Below the pieces are notes generated by a model. The model did not search any database. It saw only the letters and a program-made list of their open reading frames with translations, and was not told the DNA's origin. From Fibrella aestuarina BUZ 2 (GTDB taxonomy: Bacteria > Bacteroidota > Bacteroidia > Cytophagales > Spirosomataceae), in contig NC_020054.1 in assembly GCF_000331105.1 (NCBI RefSeq), positions 4,452,257 to 4,516,256 of the forward strand: 64,000 bases of DNA, read 5' to 3'. Below are positions 31,928 to 38,681 of the stretch, piece after piece. The first letter of the stretch is position 1. The number at the start of each line of letters is the position of its first letter. A program made the position numbers and the translations under genes.

Positions 31928-32000
31928 GATCTGGTAGCTCAGCTGGTAGAGCAATACACTTTTAATGTATGGGTCCTGGGTTCGAATCCCAGCCGGATCA
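31928..32000 (+). tRNA. tRNA-Lys (anticodon TTT)
   Basis: The 7-bp acceptor stem GATCTGG/CCGGATC (one G-U pair) closes a cloverleaf with D-arm TAGCTCAGCTGGTAGAGCA, anticodon loop CTTTTAA (anticodon TTT) and T-arm GGGTTCGAATCCC. The discriminator base is A at 32000 and CCA is not encoded. The prophage recombinase gene follows about 300 bp downstream, so the 3' part of this gene is the likely attachment core. Confidence 0.96.
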
Positions 32001-32019
32001 CAACCCGAGTTTGATTTCA

Positions 32020-32228: not shown

Positions 32229-32295
32229 GTTAGGCAACTGGGTGCGATGTAAGCGTTTCGCTTATCTCAATCTCAATAACCATGTTAAAAAACAC

Positions 32296-33666
32296 ATGAA
32301 TGTGCGGTTTCTTTTCCGCCCTTCCAGTAGCCACCCCACCCGTGGCACTATTCAATGCCGGATCACCGTGGCCGGCAAACGAGCTACCCCCTTCGCTACC
32401 GGTGTCGGTTTAAGCCGATCCGACTGGAACGCCCGGCTTCAGCAGCTCAAAGGCCGATCCGAACGAGCCCAGATCGACAACACCAGGCTGGAGCGTATCC
32501 GGGGCAAGCTGATGAACATCTTTAACTACTACGATACCCACAATATGCAGGTGTCGGCCGAGCTGATCAAAGAGGTCTATGCCGGTAAGCGGTCAGTTCA
32601 GTACTCCCTGACGCAGATCGTGCAGATGTTTCTGGATTCAGAGCAGGGGCGCGTCGGCGACGGCGACAAACAGATCAGCCAGGAAACGTTTAACGGCAAA
32701 AAGAACAGGCTGAGCCACCTGACCAACTGGCTGAAGGCTCACGGCCGGCAGCATCTGCTCGGTGCCGAGCTAAAAAAAGGCCACGTCATTGAGTGGGTTA
32801 ATGATATGCAGGGTAGTTATAAACACAACTACATTGCCAAGCACATCGATCTGCTGCACGAGGTGCTCGACTGGGCCGTGTTGCACGAGCATATCGGGGC
32901 CAACAAATTAGGCGACTTCCGCTACAGCCGCGAAAAGCCAGAACGCCCGGAATACCTCAGCACGGAGGAAATTGAACGCCTGGAGAAACTGACCTTTCCC
33001 CGATCGCTGAGTTTGGCCTACTCGGGCCGGTTAGAGAAAGTGCGCGATATGCTGATGATGATGTGCGCGGTCGGTATGCACTATTCCGATTACGCCAAAC
33101 TGTCGAGCAGTGATCTGCGCACGTACCCGGAGGGCAAATACATTGTGGTGCTCCGGAAGAAAACCAAAAAGGAGGCAATCATTCCGCTCTCGCCGCTGGC
33201 CCAGCGCATTATCGACATATATGGCAGCCTGGAGGCCCTCCCCAGGCCCGGCAATGCCCAGTCGAATAAGCTGCTGAAAATGATCGTGGCCTGCGCCAAG
33301 ATCGATAAGCCGAAGATCTGCACCAAGTACGGCCGTCGATCGTTTACGGATTTCTATCTGAATGAAATGGGCTGGCCAATGGAGAAGTTATTGAAAATGT
33401 TAGGCCTCACCAGCAGCCAGTACATTGCCCACTATGGCCAGATTGATCACCGCTCGCTGCGCCTGGAGGATCGGAGCCAGAAAGAGCTGACCGAACGCGA
33501 GCAACTGGAGGTTTTCGAAGGGGCCATTGGTGGCCGTTTCCGCCTGAAGGCCGGCCAGGGTAATGCCCTGGAAGATGAAATTGCAGGCGTTGACTGGAAA
33601 TACCTGCACGTGCAGAGTAGGCAGTACGGTAACTTTCATGTCAGCCTCTGCGAACTAATAAAATAG
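32296..33666 (+). CDS. int: Tyrosine recombinase (phage integrase)
   Basis: 456 aa from the ATG at 32296. The N-terminal arm-binding domain (RFLFRPSSSHPTRGTIQCR) and core-binding SAM-like domain (residues about 105-210) precede a catalytic domain from about 225. The box I position reads CAVGMHYSDYAKL, with His where the first catalytic Arg normally stands; several Bacteroidota recombinases are known to lack that Arg. Box II reads TKYGRRSFTDFYL, and the nucleophile Tyr is probably in SQYIAHYGQID. It inserts and excises the prophage at the tRNA-Lys. A GTG at 32242 would add a non-conserved extension. A two-way terminator separates it from the next, converging gene. Confidence 0.88.
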   Translation: MNVRFLFRPSSSHPTRGTIQCRITVAGKRATPFATGVGLSRSDWNARLQQLKGRSERAQIDNTRLERIRGKLMNIFNYYDTHNMQVSAELIKEVYAGKRSVQYSLTQIVQMFLDSEQGRVGDGDKQISQETFNGKKNRLSHLTNWLKAHGRQHLLGAELKKGHVIEWVNDMQGSYKHNYIAKHIDLLHEVLDWAVLHEHIGANKLGDFRYSREKPERPEYLSTEEIERLEKLTFPRSLSLAYSGRLEKVRDMLMMMCAVGMHYSDYAKLSSSDLRTYPEGKYIVVLRKKTKKEAIIPLSPLAQRIIDIYGSLEALPRPGNAQSNKLLKMIVACAKIDKPKICTKYGRRSFTDFYLNEMGWPMEKLLKMLGLTSSQYIAHYGQIDHRSLRLEDRSQKELTEREQLEVFEGAIGGRFRLKAGQGNALEDEIAGVDWKYLHVQSRQYGNFHVSLCELIK

Positions 33667-33673
33667 TGCTCCC

Positions 33674-33700
33674 CCCCCGTTATTTTAACGGGGGATTTTT
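33674..33700. terminator. Terminator between integrase and the HEPN gene
   Basis: CCCCCGTTA (33674-33682) pairs with TAACGGGGG (33686-33694) around TTT and is followed by ATTTTT on the + strand, with A-rich sequence on the far side. It lies just after the integrase stop and 17 bp before the converging gene's stop, so it can serve both. Confidence 0.75.
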
Positions 33701-33716
33701 CAAAATCAACATTATA

Positions 33717-34937
33717 TTATTTAAACTTTACATCATCTATATATTTCCTAAGGTCTTCAACGGTATTCATATCCACAAAATCTTTATCCGTGAGAAGTAT
33801 ATGAATTGTTATCTTTATAAGATAATTCGCAATATGCAGGTCCCCTTTAGTAACTTCAACACTTCCTCCATGTGCAACAGCAGATCGCTTCCTGTAAATA
33901 TCTTTGAAATATTTCACTATATCTTTTCTAGCTTCTAATTCCTCTGACATTATAAACGCTAACCACTCACTTATCTGACTTACTATTGATGAAGTTATAA
34001 AGTCTTTACTATTCAATTGCAACAAACCTTCAATTGCAAATACATATTTTACGATAGCTTCCAAATTATTTTTTTCATAGTTTGCTTTCCCTGTCCATTC
34101 AACGGCACGGAGAATTCTTTGTTTTAATTCCCCTTTATTATGATCTGTTATAAGATCCCAAAGATAATATGTACCAAATTCTATATTTTTACATAACTTA
34201 TCGTTCAGATTCACAGGTAAAGATATATCCAATGTACGGCCACTGAATCCCAATCCATCACTAGTGATTGAAAGACTATTTATGTTTTTGCTACCTCTAT
34301 AACTAAAGATTCCCGGACAGCGTTGTTGTTTGATATCCCCAACACAGTATTTTAAAACATTCTCGAAGACACCAAAATATTCAAATGCAGTTTCTACAGC
34401 CTTTTCTTGGGAACGGGCTTTGACTTGCAAGCCAACCATATAATCTGAATCGATAGAATTCAGATGAAATTGGGATCTTCTTGGATCATCATTTTTAGCC
34501 TTTTCATTTTCAATATATGACTTTTTATAAACCTTGAATTGCCCTAGCTCATATACATCATGATCACATTCTACTCCATATAATGGCACTAAAATCTCAT
34601 AGTCCTGTCGCTTCAAATCTAGAAAATAGCTGTACAGCTCATCAACATCATGATCACTACAGAATCTCCCTTCTACCCACAATTCACTCAGTAAACTCAT
34701 TAATCTTTTCTCGAAAGACTCTATCGTTATATCTCTATGTAAGTATTTAAAATTAAGGAGTTCCCTTCGAATATTCTCAAATTTTTTAATATTATTATCA
34801 CCCAAGAAATTTATAGCAGTTTCACCAAAACCAAAAGTACGACAACTCTGCCTTTTATGTGCTGTCTCTTCATAAATCCCATATATGGAAATATCCTTCA
34901 AAGAATTAATTAATTCTTTTTGTTTATTGTAGTTCAT
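33717..34937 (-). CDS. AT-rich HEPN-domain protein (Apea-like), putative abortive-infection RNase
   Basis: A 406-aa soluble protein. The last 130 residues match the Apea-type HEPN domain: FAIEGLLQLN, then SQISEWLAFIM, then DIYRKRSAVAHGG, where R351-x4-H356 is the RNase motif of HEPN toxins. The N-terminal 250 residues are strand-rich with no motif I recognise and may sense the trigger. HEPN/ApeA proteins defend bacteria by degrading RNA on phage infection. The gene is visibly AT-rich (sampled lines about 28-45% G+C) against a G+C-rich phage and host, so it was acquired separately. It lies beside the integrase at the edge of the prophage, a usual site for cargo genes, and reads leftward. Whether it is a defence gene is inference. 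Confidence 0.72.
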   Translation of the reverse strand: MNYNKQKELINSLKDISIYGIYEETAHKRQSCRTFGFGETAINFLGDNNIKKFENIRRELLNFKYLHRDITIESFEKRLMSLLSELWVEGRFCSDHDVDELYSYFLDLKRQDYEILVPLYGVECDHDVYELGQFKVYKKSYIENEKAKNDDPRRSQFHLNSIDSDYMVGLQVKARSQEKAVETAFEYFGVFENVLKYCVGDIKQQRCPGIFSYRGSKNINSLSITSDGLGFSGRTLDISLPVNLNDKLCKNIEFGTYYLWDLITDHNKGELKQRILRAVEWTGKANYEKNNLEAIVKYVFAIEGLLQLNSKDFITSSIVSQISEWLAFIMSEELEARKDIVKYFKDIYRKRSAVAHGGSVEVTKGDLHIANYLIKITIHILLTDKDFVDMNTVEDLRKYIDDVKFK

Positions 34938-34967: not shown

Positions 34968-35153
34968 CTACCTAGAACTAGTTATTCGACATATCTCCAT
35001 CAGCCTGTTAGCCCAAGGCAATAGATGCTCTGGAAAACGGGAGTCAAAAACCACTGCTTCAATATCAGTCAGATGTAATATACGTTTTCCGTCCTGCTCG
35101 ATTGAACGAGTAGCTAATTGGTTATAAACCTCCTGATCAGTCCATTCGACCAT
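34968..35153 (-). CDS. Small ORF upstream of the HEPN gene
   Basis: A 61-aa hydrophilic product (begins MVEWTDQEVYNQLATRSIEQ). It ends 30 bp before the HEPN start on the same strand, in the same AT-rich stretch. No family is recognised and the ribosome-binding region is not informative. The composition looks protein-like, not random, and the pairing suggests an operon. It could be a regulator or antitoxin, or a spurious ORF. Confidence 0.35.
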   Translation of the reverse strand: MVEWTDQEVYNQLATRSIEQDGKRILHLTDIEAVVFDSRFPEHLLPWANRLMEICRITSSR

Positions 35154-35193
35154 AGTAGCAACCGACAGCCAACAGGCGGCGCTGCCTTTCCCG

Positions 35194-35309
35194 CTGCTAA
35201 GTTCATCTACAAGGAGGTGACTAACTGAGCCATTACAGCACAGATACGGGGGTGCAGCACCGCCTACTGGCGACGGTGCCCACCTCCTTGTAAAAAATGA
35301 ACTTAGCAG
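35194..35309. repeat. 116-bp palindromic element with inner stem-loops
   Basis: The ends pair in two blocks: CTGCTAAGTTCAT (35194-35206) with ATGAACTTAGCAG (35297-35309), and TACAAGGAGGTG (35208-35219) with CACCTCCTTGTA (35281-35292). Only a small bulge lies between the blocks. Inside, GCACCG and CGGTGC form a further short stem. It begins 37 bp past the tape-measure stop. It could be a late-transcript terminator, a structured RNA or a small mobile element. The 408-bp gap holds only this and the small ORF. Confidence 0.7.
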
Positions 35310-35345
35310 TGCAAAAGTAAGGCCTTAACCGAAACGTTATGCAAC

Positions 35346-38300
35346 CTACAGACTGGTTTCAGTACGCACCTGGCCGAGTTGATCTTCGTATTCCTCCAGC
35401 AGCCGGTAGTTCAGCATGACGGGCCGGTTAGCCAGGCCCGTCATGTCAGCCCGCAGCTGATTCAGCTGTCCGTTCATCGCCAGCAGCTGGGGGCCGTAGT
35501 CCGGGCCAGCCGGTGCGCTCGTCGCCGCGCGGGCCTGCTCGCCCATGATCTGACCGAAGGGCGCATAATCGCCACGTCGCTGCACGGCATCGAGCGCGAG
35601 CGCCAGGTTGGCAAACACCGGATTTTCCAGCATGGCCCCACCCATGATAAACTCCCGCCGGCGCTCGCCGACGATATAGCTGCGGCGGCCGGCGTTGACC
35701 CGCGTGGGCTGGCTGTAAAAACCCGACGGATCACCGTACAGATCGGCAATGCCGGTAAAGCCCCCATCATCTTTTTTAGCCAGGGCCGTACCCGGCGCGG
35801 CCAGCTCCTGCACACCCTGGGCGGCAATAGTGCCGATGCCCACGCCGGCGCGCACCTTGGCGGCCACCGTCTGAGCCGTCAGGATGCTGGCGCCCTGATC
35901 GGGTAGCAGCCAGTAATACGGCGGTCGGTTGGTCCACATCTGGGAAATTTCCCGCTGGGTGTTGACGATGATCTCCGCAATAGCGAAGGCTTTCATGGCC
36001 ACCACCATCGCTTTATAGGCGACGGTGTGCTGGCCCAGAAACGATTGAAGCACACTCAGGCCCTGCGACATAGCCTCCCGGCGGGCTTCGTTCACGGCCC
36101 ACTGCGCCTCGCGCATGGCGTCGCTTGCATCCTTTTCGGCCTGGGCCCGCAGCCAAACCTGCCGGTTATGGTTCTCCGTTAGGGCCGCTTCGGTGTCGGC
36201 CGACTCCTGCGAATAGGCCTGTTGCACCAGCAGTTTGGCGTTCAGGTACGTTTCTTCCTCCTGAAGCTCCAGCAGGCGCAGATCCTGCGCGGCGTTGATC
36301 TTACCGTCTGGGGTCAGGCCCAGTTTGCCCTGACGCCCCTCGTGTTCCTGATCAACACCACCCATCACCAGGTCATAGCTGCGTTTGTCGGATTCCCGCT
36401 GTTCCCGCAGTTGCTTTTCCTGTTTGATTCGTTCCTTCTCGGCCTTCTGTTCCTCCAGCTTTTCTTTCCGATCGATTTCGCGCTGCTGGATCTGGGTCAG
36501 CTCGTCGCTCATCAACTGCTGCACCTCGGCCTGGCGTTCCTTATTGGAACCCGCCATCTTCAGCAGCTTCGCATAGTGTTCGCCAAACTGCAATTGCTCC
36601 CGCTCGAAGGTTTTATCACGGCCCTTCGCCTGACGCTCCAGGGCATCCTCAACTAGTTTTTCGTAGGTCTCCTGCTCTTTCTGTACCGTTCTGGCCTCGC
36701 GCTGGCTCTTCTTCTCCCGTTTTTCGCGCTCCTTTCGTTCATGATCCGACTCGGTATAGGTGTCCTCGGTAGGGGCCGATTTGGCACTGGGTAGCAGATC
36801 CACGCGCTGACGCCGTTCATTGCGCCGGCGCGTCGATTCTTTTTCCTCCAGATAATCCCCGCTCAGCCCGGAGCGGCGCGTTTCCAGATCGGCGATCGCC
36901 TTGTTTTTGGCGGCAATATCAGCGTCGAGCTGCTGCAATTCGGCCGTCGTGTACACCCGCTCCTGCACGCTCCCGCTGTTGCCCTTCGACACGACGACCT
37001 CCTTGCCGGCTTTCCGTTTGTTAATTAGAAACTGAAGACCAGAGCGCGCATTGGTCAGCTCCTCATCCGTATCGGCGATCGCCTGGCGGTTAGTGTATTT
37101 GAGCACCTCTTTCTGCTGCTTGACGTACTCGCGGGCTTTCTCGGTGCTGATGGCCATCGCGTTACCCATTGCATCGAACTGAGTCACGGCCTGGGGAATA
37201 CTGCCGGCCACGGCCTTGATAATCTTATCGAGTTCCTGCTGCTCGGTGGTGGTCAGCTTGGTTTTCGCTTTTAGCTCATCGTGGCGTTTCAGCAACGGCT
37301 CGGTATCTTTCTGAAGTGATTTGATGCTATCCCGCTGGCTTTCGAAGGCCTTCATAGACGACTCTGAGGCACTGGTCAGGCCCAGCACTTTGGTGGCGGC
37401 GGTGACCAGCCACTCGGCAAACCCCGGCAGTCCGGATTTTGACAACAAACCACCGAACCACTCGCTGAGCTTCTTGAGGTTCACGGCTAGGTCATAGTTC
37501 TTTTTGTTGAACTCGCCCATGACCGAATCCGTCGACAGAATGGTATCCTGGGCCAGCCCGATGCGTTTGTCGAGCATATCGGTGTTGCTGGCCAGCTTCA
37601 TGAACACTTCCATCACGCCGTTGCCGTTCATGCCCATCTCGTCGAGCTTGTGGGCCATGCCGGTGGCGGTGGCGTCGCCTTCGCCAAATCCTTTAATGAC
37701 GGCCCTCAGCGCGCCCATCATGTCGGTGTTCACCAGGTGCGCAAACTCCTTCGTGCTGAGCGTAGTGCCATCGGCCGCGCGGGCATATTTGGCGAAGGCG
37801 TCGGGCGCTTTGGCCATCCCATTCAGGATGTCGACCACGGCCGTGCTGCCCCGTTCCGACGTTACGTTCAGTTCCTGAAGCGTCGCCGACAGGCCCAGCA
37901 CCTGGGCGGAGGTCAGCCCCAGCGGCACGGCCACGCCCCCGATCCGGCTGGTCATGTCGGCCAGTACCGGCGCGGTCGCCGCCCCGGCTGACTCCAGGGC
38001 GTTGATGGTGTTGGCAATGTGGAGCATGTCGGTGCCCACGTCGTCGGTTTTGATATCGCCGAGCACGTTCCGCAGGCCCGTCATTTCGGTGGCCACGGCC
38101 TCGGCGTTCTCGAACTGATCGCCCAGCGCTACGTTGGCAATGTCGGTAGCTTTCACAAACCCGCTGATCTGCTCCTTGGCCACCCCAAACTGACCACCCA
38201 CAGCCGCCATATCGCGCAACTCTTTGGTGGGCGTACGGGTGTTGATGTCTTTCAGATCTTTGTTCAGGGCCTGAATCTCGCTATCGGCCATACCGGTCGT

Positions 38301-38681
38301 TTTGGCGATGTCAGCGAACTGATCCCGCAGTTTCACCGACTTGTCGATCGCCATCGGAATCAGCCCGACCAACGTTTCCAGCCCCCAGGTGGCGATGTTG
38401 CCACCGGCCACGCCGGCCAGGATCGTGCCTCCTTCCTTGAGGAACGTCTGCCAGCCCGAAGCTGTCTCCTTCAGCCGGTCGCCCATCGACCTGGCTGCGC
38501 TCTCCAGCAATTTAACCTGCTCGGCTTTTTTGGCGTAGGCAGCCGGATCGTCAGCCTCAGCCATCCGGTTGAACTCCTTGCGGGCGTCGATGGCCTCGGC
38601 CTTGATTTGCTTTAACGAGGCCTTCGCCTGCTCGCCATTGATCACTAAATCAATGACGGCGCGTTCCTGTTGATTGGCCAT
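35346..38681 (-). CDS. Phage tail tape measure protein
   Basis: A 1111-aa protein that sets tail length and leaves the tail during DNA ejection. Residues about 70-430 carry the TP901-type core (GVAKEQISGFVKATDIANVALGDQ shortened: GVAKEQISGFVKATD; later GLTSAQVLGLSATLQELNVT and GSTAVVDILNGMAKAPDAF). Charged coiled coils fill about 440-800 (KEKLEEQKAEKERIKQEK region), and a hydrophobic segment near 880 (VAYKAMVVAMKAFAIAEIIV) may span the membrane. It is the last late gene; its start overlaps the upstream stop by one base. Confidence 0.93.
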   Translation of the reverse strand: MANQQERAVIDLVINGEQAKASLKQIKAEAIDARKEFNRMAEADDPAAYAKKAEQVKLLESAARSMGDRLKETASGWQTFLKEGGTILAGVAGGNIATWGLETLVGLIPMAIDKSVKLRDQFADIAKTTGMADSEIQALNKDLKDINTRTPTKELRDMAAVGGQFGVAKEQISGFVKATDIANVALGDQFENAEAVATEMTGLRNVLGDIKTDDVGTDMLHIANTINALESAGAATAPVLADMTSRIGGVAVPLGLTSAQVLGLSATLQELNVTSERGSTAVVDILNGMAKAPDAFAKYARAADGTTLSTKEFAHLVNTDMMGALRAVIKGFGEGDATATGMAHKLDEMGMNGNGVMEVFMKLASNTDMLDKRIGLAQDTILSTDSVMGEFNKKNYDLAVNLKKLSEWFGGLLSKSGLPGFAEWLVTAATKVLGLTSASESSMKAFESQRDSIKSLQKDTEPLLKRHDELKAKTKLTTTEQQELDKIIKAVAGSIPQAVTQFDAMGNAMAISTEKAREYVKQQKEVLKYTNRQAIADTDEELTNARSGLQFLINKRKAGKEVVVSKGNSGSVQERVYTTAELQQLDADIAAKNKAIADLETRRSGLSGDYLEEKESTRRRNERRQRVDLLPSAKSAPTEDTYTESDHERKEREKREKKSQREARTVQKEQETYEKLVEDALERQAKGRDKTFEREQLQFGEHYAKLLKMAGSNKERQAEVQQLMSDELTQIQQREIDRKEKLEEQKAEKERIKQEKQLREQRESDKRSYDLVMGGVDQEHEGRQGKLGLTPDGKINAAQDLRLLELQEEETYLNAKLLVQQAYSQESADTEAALTENHNRQVWLRAQAEKDASDAMREAQWAVNEARREAMSQGLSVLQSFLGQHTVAYKAMVVAMKAFAIAEIIVNTQREISQMWTNRPPYYWLLPDQGASILTAQTVAAKVRAGVGIGTIAAQGVQELAAPGTALAKKDDGGFTGIADLYGDPSGFYSQPTRVNAGRRSYIVGERRREFIMGGAMLENPVFANLALALDAVQRRGDYAPFGQIMGEQARAATSAPAGPDYGPQLLAMNGQLNQLRADMTGLANRPVMLNYRLLEEYEDQLGQVRTETSL

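Follow-up and report, generated by a model that had tools for sequence, protein, structure and literature searches.

The 64,000-nucleotide window analysed here, from contig NC_020054.1 of Fibrella aestuarina BUZ 2, contains part of a prophage with an integrase at one edge, and next to this integrase lies a 406-codon gene on the minus strand whose product, as judged by its sequence and its predicted model, is a member of the HEPN superfamily. The protein is probably a prophage-borne, single-gene abortive-infection effector, with a candidate sensor in front of its HEPN domain. In the proposed mechanism, the C-terminal HEPN domain (residues 265-391) most likely homodimerises, and the paired R-x4-H motifs would form an RNase centre. 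The roughly 255 residues at the N-terminus would keep the RNase switched off until they encounter a component or a consequence of another phage's infection, and the released RNase would then cleave cellular RNA, bringing growth and phage production to a stop. That the protein dimerises, is active as an RNase, senses with its front part, responds to such a trigger and defends at all are points that we infer. The parts of the gene involved are:

33717..34937, minus strand: HEPN protein gene, 406 aa (ORF call, GC, conserved motif, predicted fold)
34176..34937, minus strand: N-terminal region, residues 1-254, candidate sensor (model secondary structure; no significant family match)
33765..34145, minus strand: HEPN domain, residues 265-391 (range aligned to solved HEPN structures)
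33870..33887, minus strand: R351-S-A-V-A-H356, predicted catalytic motif (sequence; invariance of R, S and H)

The open reading frame (ORF) is intact, with an ATG start and zero internal stops. RSAVAH, at residues 351-356, is an R-x4-H motif located in the C-terminal helical bundle. Within an alignment of the query and nine relatives, R351, S352, H356 and E303 are invariant in all ten proteins. In the AlphaFold2 model (pLDDT 80.8), residues 265-391 resemble solved HEPN proteins, the HEPN toxins of HEPN-MNT pairs being among the structural neighbours; a Foldseek search of PDB and BFVD returned no match at E <= 0.001. The HEPN assignment follows from the four invariant residues together with the predicted fold. 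A first-pass annotation, made from the letters alone, had placed an R-x4-H motif, with R351 and H356, within a HEPN domain and named structure prediction as a test of the fold; conservation and the HEPN-like model both bear it out.

The front part is organised differently in the model: residues 1-108 are mostly helical and residues 109-240 are mixed alpha/beta; confidence is low at 206-209, 212-218 and 230-240. It has no significant match in Pfam, PADLOC, PHROGs or NCBIfam (best phrog_13074, E 0.011, residues 147-179), so the annotation's remark that it belongs to no recognised family holds as far as these four libraries reach; an hhalign comparison of the N-terminal part of the family with 24 HEPN-like proteins produced no firm match. 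When residues 1-265 are predicted alone without an alignment, pLDDT is 38.9, so novelty of the front-part fold is not claimed. A sensor role is suggested by the pattern of a variable front and a constant effector and by the precedent of Tha, the tail-activated HEPN anti-phage system. It is possible, and proposed here tentatively, that residues 1-254 constitute a novel phage-sensing module on a HEPN RNase, and that the family forms a novel immune system carried by prophages, viruses and plasmids across Bacteroidota and Bacillota, housed here in a variable tape-measure/integrase cargo area that also holds TIR and other defence-type genes in related prophages.

The full-length protein likewise has no significant match in the same four libraries. 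A protein search yields a single full-length relative, P0003 (43-44%), and a profile search adds eight further relatives, seven of them named Listeria, one Listeria relative carrying the source label 'Apea-like HEPN domain-containi...'. With tblastn, 16 of 72,556 plasmid records match at E <= 1, 12 of these annotated 'HEPN domain-containing protein', and none of 50,697 phage records does so at the same threshold. Scanning for loci with A3 initially gave no match; relatives were obtained with A4. They comprise a 406-aa protein in a Prolixibacteraceae genome (L030), a relative truncated where its contig ends (L031) and a 414-aa protein in an IMG/VR contig (L032). Judging by ORF motifs rather than family calls, we take the first to adjoin type I restriction-modification genes, and the third presumably adjoins a DNA methyltransferase and precedes terminase and portal genes. 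The query itself is found in 1 of 198 whole genomes, its own. Profile matches occur in 8 of 395 (phylum), 13 of 390 (order) and 7 of 395 (class) genomes, each count including the own genome, and are confined to the C-terminal part except for the own gene, L009 (positions 111-408) and L033 (159-393). Six of the ten HEPN family members match phrog_28161, a phage family of 315 positions and of function not known, at E <= 0.1 (best 9.2e-5); the query matches it weakly (E 0.039, residues 316-371), and the shared stretch is limited to the surroundings of the HEPN motif. A literature search, which left out most subscription journals, found no description of this HEPN family.

The gene is set within the prophage as follows:

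31978..32001, plus strand: attL, the 3' end of tRNA-Lys (31928-32001), as a 24-nt repeat
32242..33666, plus strand: tyrosine integrase gene, transcribed towards the HEPN gene (Pfam and PHROGs matches)
33674..33694, plus strand: terminator-like stem-loop separating integrase and HEPN gene (stem scan)
34968..35153, minus strand: 61-codon ORF upstream of the HEPN gene, coding status uncertain (ORF call)
35346..38681, minus strand: tape-measure-like gene, the other border of the cargo area (function read from sequence)

The last 24 nt of tRNA-Lys are present twice, at 31978-32001 and at window-equivalent positions 75642-75665 (attR, beyond the window), and this repeat at both ends therefore delimits a prophage of ~43.7 kb. 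The attR copy is followed by a stem-loop and a T run which, read by eye, resemble a tRNA gene's own terminator. The integrase matches PF17293 barely over its cut-off, PF00589 under that family's cut-off and phrog_1 at E 6.9e-17; used as query in the viral scan, it gave no match. The HEPN gene is located between the integrase and the gene at 35346-38681, which we take from features of its sequence to be tape-measure-like. Its GC content is 0.324 against 0.582 for the window, and the window's GC minimum for stretches of this length, scanned in 10-base steps, starts at 33711. The gene is thus AT-rich, lies at the integrase edge of the prophage and reads against the integrase, all as first described. 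Terminator-like stems in the scanned stretch number 1, against a mean of 1.2 expected in shuffles. A 90-codon AT-rich ORF (33666-33938, plus strand), with no Pfam match, runs antisense and overlaps the 3' end of the HEPN gene.

Tape-measure relatives are present in 35 of 149 genomes, the own included. The DNA downstream of 14 such genes was compared (labels in L098-L111); one piece was too short, leaving 13 areas. These vary between genomes and often carry AT-rich genes, and an integrase similar to that of this prophage is found in four (L098, L100, L103 weakly, L106). Ten proteins from eight of the areas were selected for family scans, with long AT-rich ORFs favoured. Four of the ten match PADLOC at E <= 0.01, as TIR 'Effector' (L099, L102), PDC-S45 (L109) and DEDDh/PDC-S48 (L106), a share that is not a rate because of this selection. 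Pfam identifies DUF4062 (L098), DUF4238 (L107), DUF5677 (L101) and Trypsin_2 (L109), as well as a second integrase, an exonuclease and a YbjQ protein in L106. A protein that, judged by its motif, looks similar to the DUF4238 one is located at L028:6048-7151, in the neighbourhood of a HEPN relative. No relative of the HEPN gene or of the 61-aa ORF is found in the 13 areas. The HEPN gene thus sits where some related prophages hold anti-virus genes, and a one-gene defence against rival phages is therefore the most likely function; the single-gene defence system suggested at the outset gains plausibility from the genes found in these areas, its defensive part being a matter of inference. Such a cargo area is also a place to seek further systems.

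Between the tape-measure gene and the 61-aa ORF, a structured RNA occupies ~125 nt, with a folding z-score of -7.1:

35190..35312, minus strand: structured RNA element of the prophage (folding z-score, covariation, RNA-model scans)
35312..35344, minus strand: promoter-like TTG-N22-TACTTTTG immediately ahead of the RNA element (one of two window matches, both strands)
RNA copies: window 35190-35312 (minus strand); L098:230-352; L117; L118; L119; L120:224-358; G042:C22:892022-892158

TAnnTTTG is the Bacteroidota -7 consensus, and this box precedes the RNA in four of five aligned copies; the site at 35312-35344 could also drive the HEPN gene. A first RNA model, built from the window copy and one related-prophage copy, matches 5 of 59 genomes, the own included, and a second matches 3 of 148 genomes in the order, two of them already found. 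With one IMG/VR contig the total is seven phage-type places, the six others being five genomes and this contig. The RNA follows the tape-measure gene by at most about 35 nt in the window, L098 and L120, and a tape-measure match by 84 nt in G042. Among the 13 areas the first model matches L098 only, and the RNA is therefore not a constant part of them. Across five sequences, 12 of 33 pairs show both-sided changes, and pairing holds in 95.4% of cells against at most 50% when slid, a comparison favoured by an alignment fitted to the structure. All Rfam matches are far below gathering scores, and the first RNA pattern scan found nothing. In the inner stem (35208-35219 with 35281-35292), a Shine-Dalgarno-like AAGGAGGTG is paired with its anti-Shine-Dalgarno-like complement CACCTCCTT, by chance or functionally. 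The element looks like an undescribed phage RNA family.

Several other explanations of the HEPN gene were weighed. It might encode the toxin of a toxin-antitoxin pair that maintains the prophage or the cell, the 61-aa ORF supplying the antitoxin: the two are on the same strand, with this ORF 30 bp upstream, and the model has the HEPN toxins of HEPN-MNT pairs among its structural neighbours. However, the ORF has no match in Pfam (nucleotidyltransferases included), PADLOC or NCBIfam at E <= 1, its best PHROG reaches E 0.3, and its phage relatives are not significant (best E 0.05). Nor does a comparable small partner stand out at four annotated relatives, which are flanked by a divergent gene (L002), a recombinase and hypothetical proteins (L003, L004) or a TPR gene (L005), although small hypothetical genes do follow at L003. 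With neither a family match nor a significant phage relative, the antitoxin assignment was rejected, and we regard a toxin-antitoxin pair as unlikely. The small ORF with which the first-pass annotation had considered the gene possibly paired does exist, but nothing points to a functional pair, and it has no supported role. Catalysis is predicted from sequence alone, so the protein might also be an inactive or non-nuclease HEPN protein, regulatory in the prophage. This is quite unlikely given that the motif's R and H do not vary across the ten aligned proteins, a property in which non-catalytic HEPN families differ.

The position at the integrase edge would suit a phage gene serving the phage's own lysogeny or lytic growth rather than cargo. 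The low GC (0.32 in a 0.58 window), the lack of a relative downstream of the tape-measure gene in the 13 related prophage areas and the presence of relatives on plasmids all speak against such a gene, and make it very improbable. The strongly structured RNA and the promoter-like site, both upstream of the HEPN gene on the same strand, raise the case of an RNA-regulated toxin neutralised by the RNA at 35190-35312, in the manner of AbiF, which works with an associated RNA (PMC12373285). This is the least credible of the alternatives, with only a slight chance of being right, as the RNA recurs at six other places and a HEPN relative is recognised at none of the four that were compared. The second RNA model has no match at E <= 1 at eight other HEPN-family loci (L031 being without upstream DNA). 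Folding windows upstream of HEPN genes in seven relatives, compared by z-score only, go down to -4.2 (L004). The RNA antitoxin was rejected because the RNA is not tied to HEPN genes elsewhere, and its recurrence without a HEPN relative at the four compared places indicates a phage RNA family that is probably distinct from the HEPN system. The single-gene abortive-infection effector is the preferred explanation.

Among known systems, ApeA is the one named at the outset, when the protein was called Apea-type and a HEPN_Apea profile search was proposed. That search leaves the query without a match to PF18739, and its nearest relative reaches E 0.0012 and 19.8 bits, under the gathering cut-off of 24.4. 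HEPN_Apea matches three of the ten aligned members at E <= 1, and ApeA_NTD1 (PF18862) none. Comparison by hhalign with ten ApeA proteins (two of twelve ORFs having been dropped, L056 as an apparent wrong ORF and L054 for an unclear motif match) gave no meaningful match, with E 0.22 for the N-terminal parts. Canonical ApeA membership is ruled out by these results, and the weak similarity is what stands of the Apea label. Four ApeA sequences, others than or partly the same as the ten, gave E 0.034 (probability 1.5%), and 24 HEPN-like proteins against ApeA HEPN parts gave E 0.0076 (probability 5.2%) with the motifs near each other, weak hints that make a distant kinship with ApeA possible. Like ApeA, the protein is a single polypeptide with a C-terminal R-x4-H HEPN, and three of the ten members show weak PF18739 similarity; its motif is RSAVAH, whereas six of ten compared ApeA proteins have RNxxTH. 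Its front part is helical and then alpha/beta in the model, unlike ApeA-NTD1, in which beta strands predominate over about 300 aa (PMC3710099). A separate canonical ApeA (PF18739 and PF18862) is encoded outside the prophage in the same genome, at C2:1683423-1684634 (L029, L048).

A HEPN/MNT arrangement is not seen, as no nucleotidyltransferase is adjacent: the neighbours are the integrase, the 61-aa ORF without a Pfam match and the tape-measure-like gene. AbiF/Abi_2 is also linked to HEPN. As there (PMC12373285), a phage-borne toxic protein would stand here with a structured RNA nearby, but the protein has no Abi_2 match and the RNA does not accompany HEPN genes elsewhere. HEPN parts are frequent among defence systems, including single-gene ones (PMC9519451, PMC13092281, PMC10952713). 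DS-11 and other single-protein HEPN defences from DefensePredictor likewise join HEPN to another domain in one protein; in DS-11 these are CBS domains, for which the HEPN protein has no Pfam match (PMC13092281).

By analogy, Tha of the Staphylococcus aureus phages 80alpha and PhiNM2 provides the best functional model. It is prophage-borne, with a C-terminal HEPN but no known N-terminal domain, and acts as an RNase when a tail protein activates it (PMC11087260). Membership in Tha itself is ruled out by BLASTP against Tha-1 of 80alpha (best E 6.7) and by hhalign (probability 0.2, E 0.26), and the lengths differ (406 aa here, 301 aa in Tha). The tha gene of 80alpha sits in the lysogeny region, accompanied by the antisense inhibitor ith (annotated xis); the antisense ORF at 33666-33938, the only one here, may recall this layout, unconvincingly and possibly by chance. 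Shared with Tha are the prophage location near the integrase, the single effector protein, the C-terminal R-x4-H HEPN and an N-terminal part without a known family. Should the protein prove defensive, the Tha-like class would gain a prophage immune protein whose sensor is unfamiliar, and what the variable front parts of such HEPN proteins recognise, and how the prophage escapes self-triggering upon its own induction, would become testable questions.
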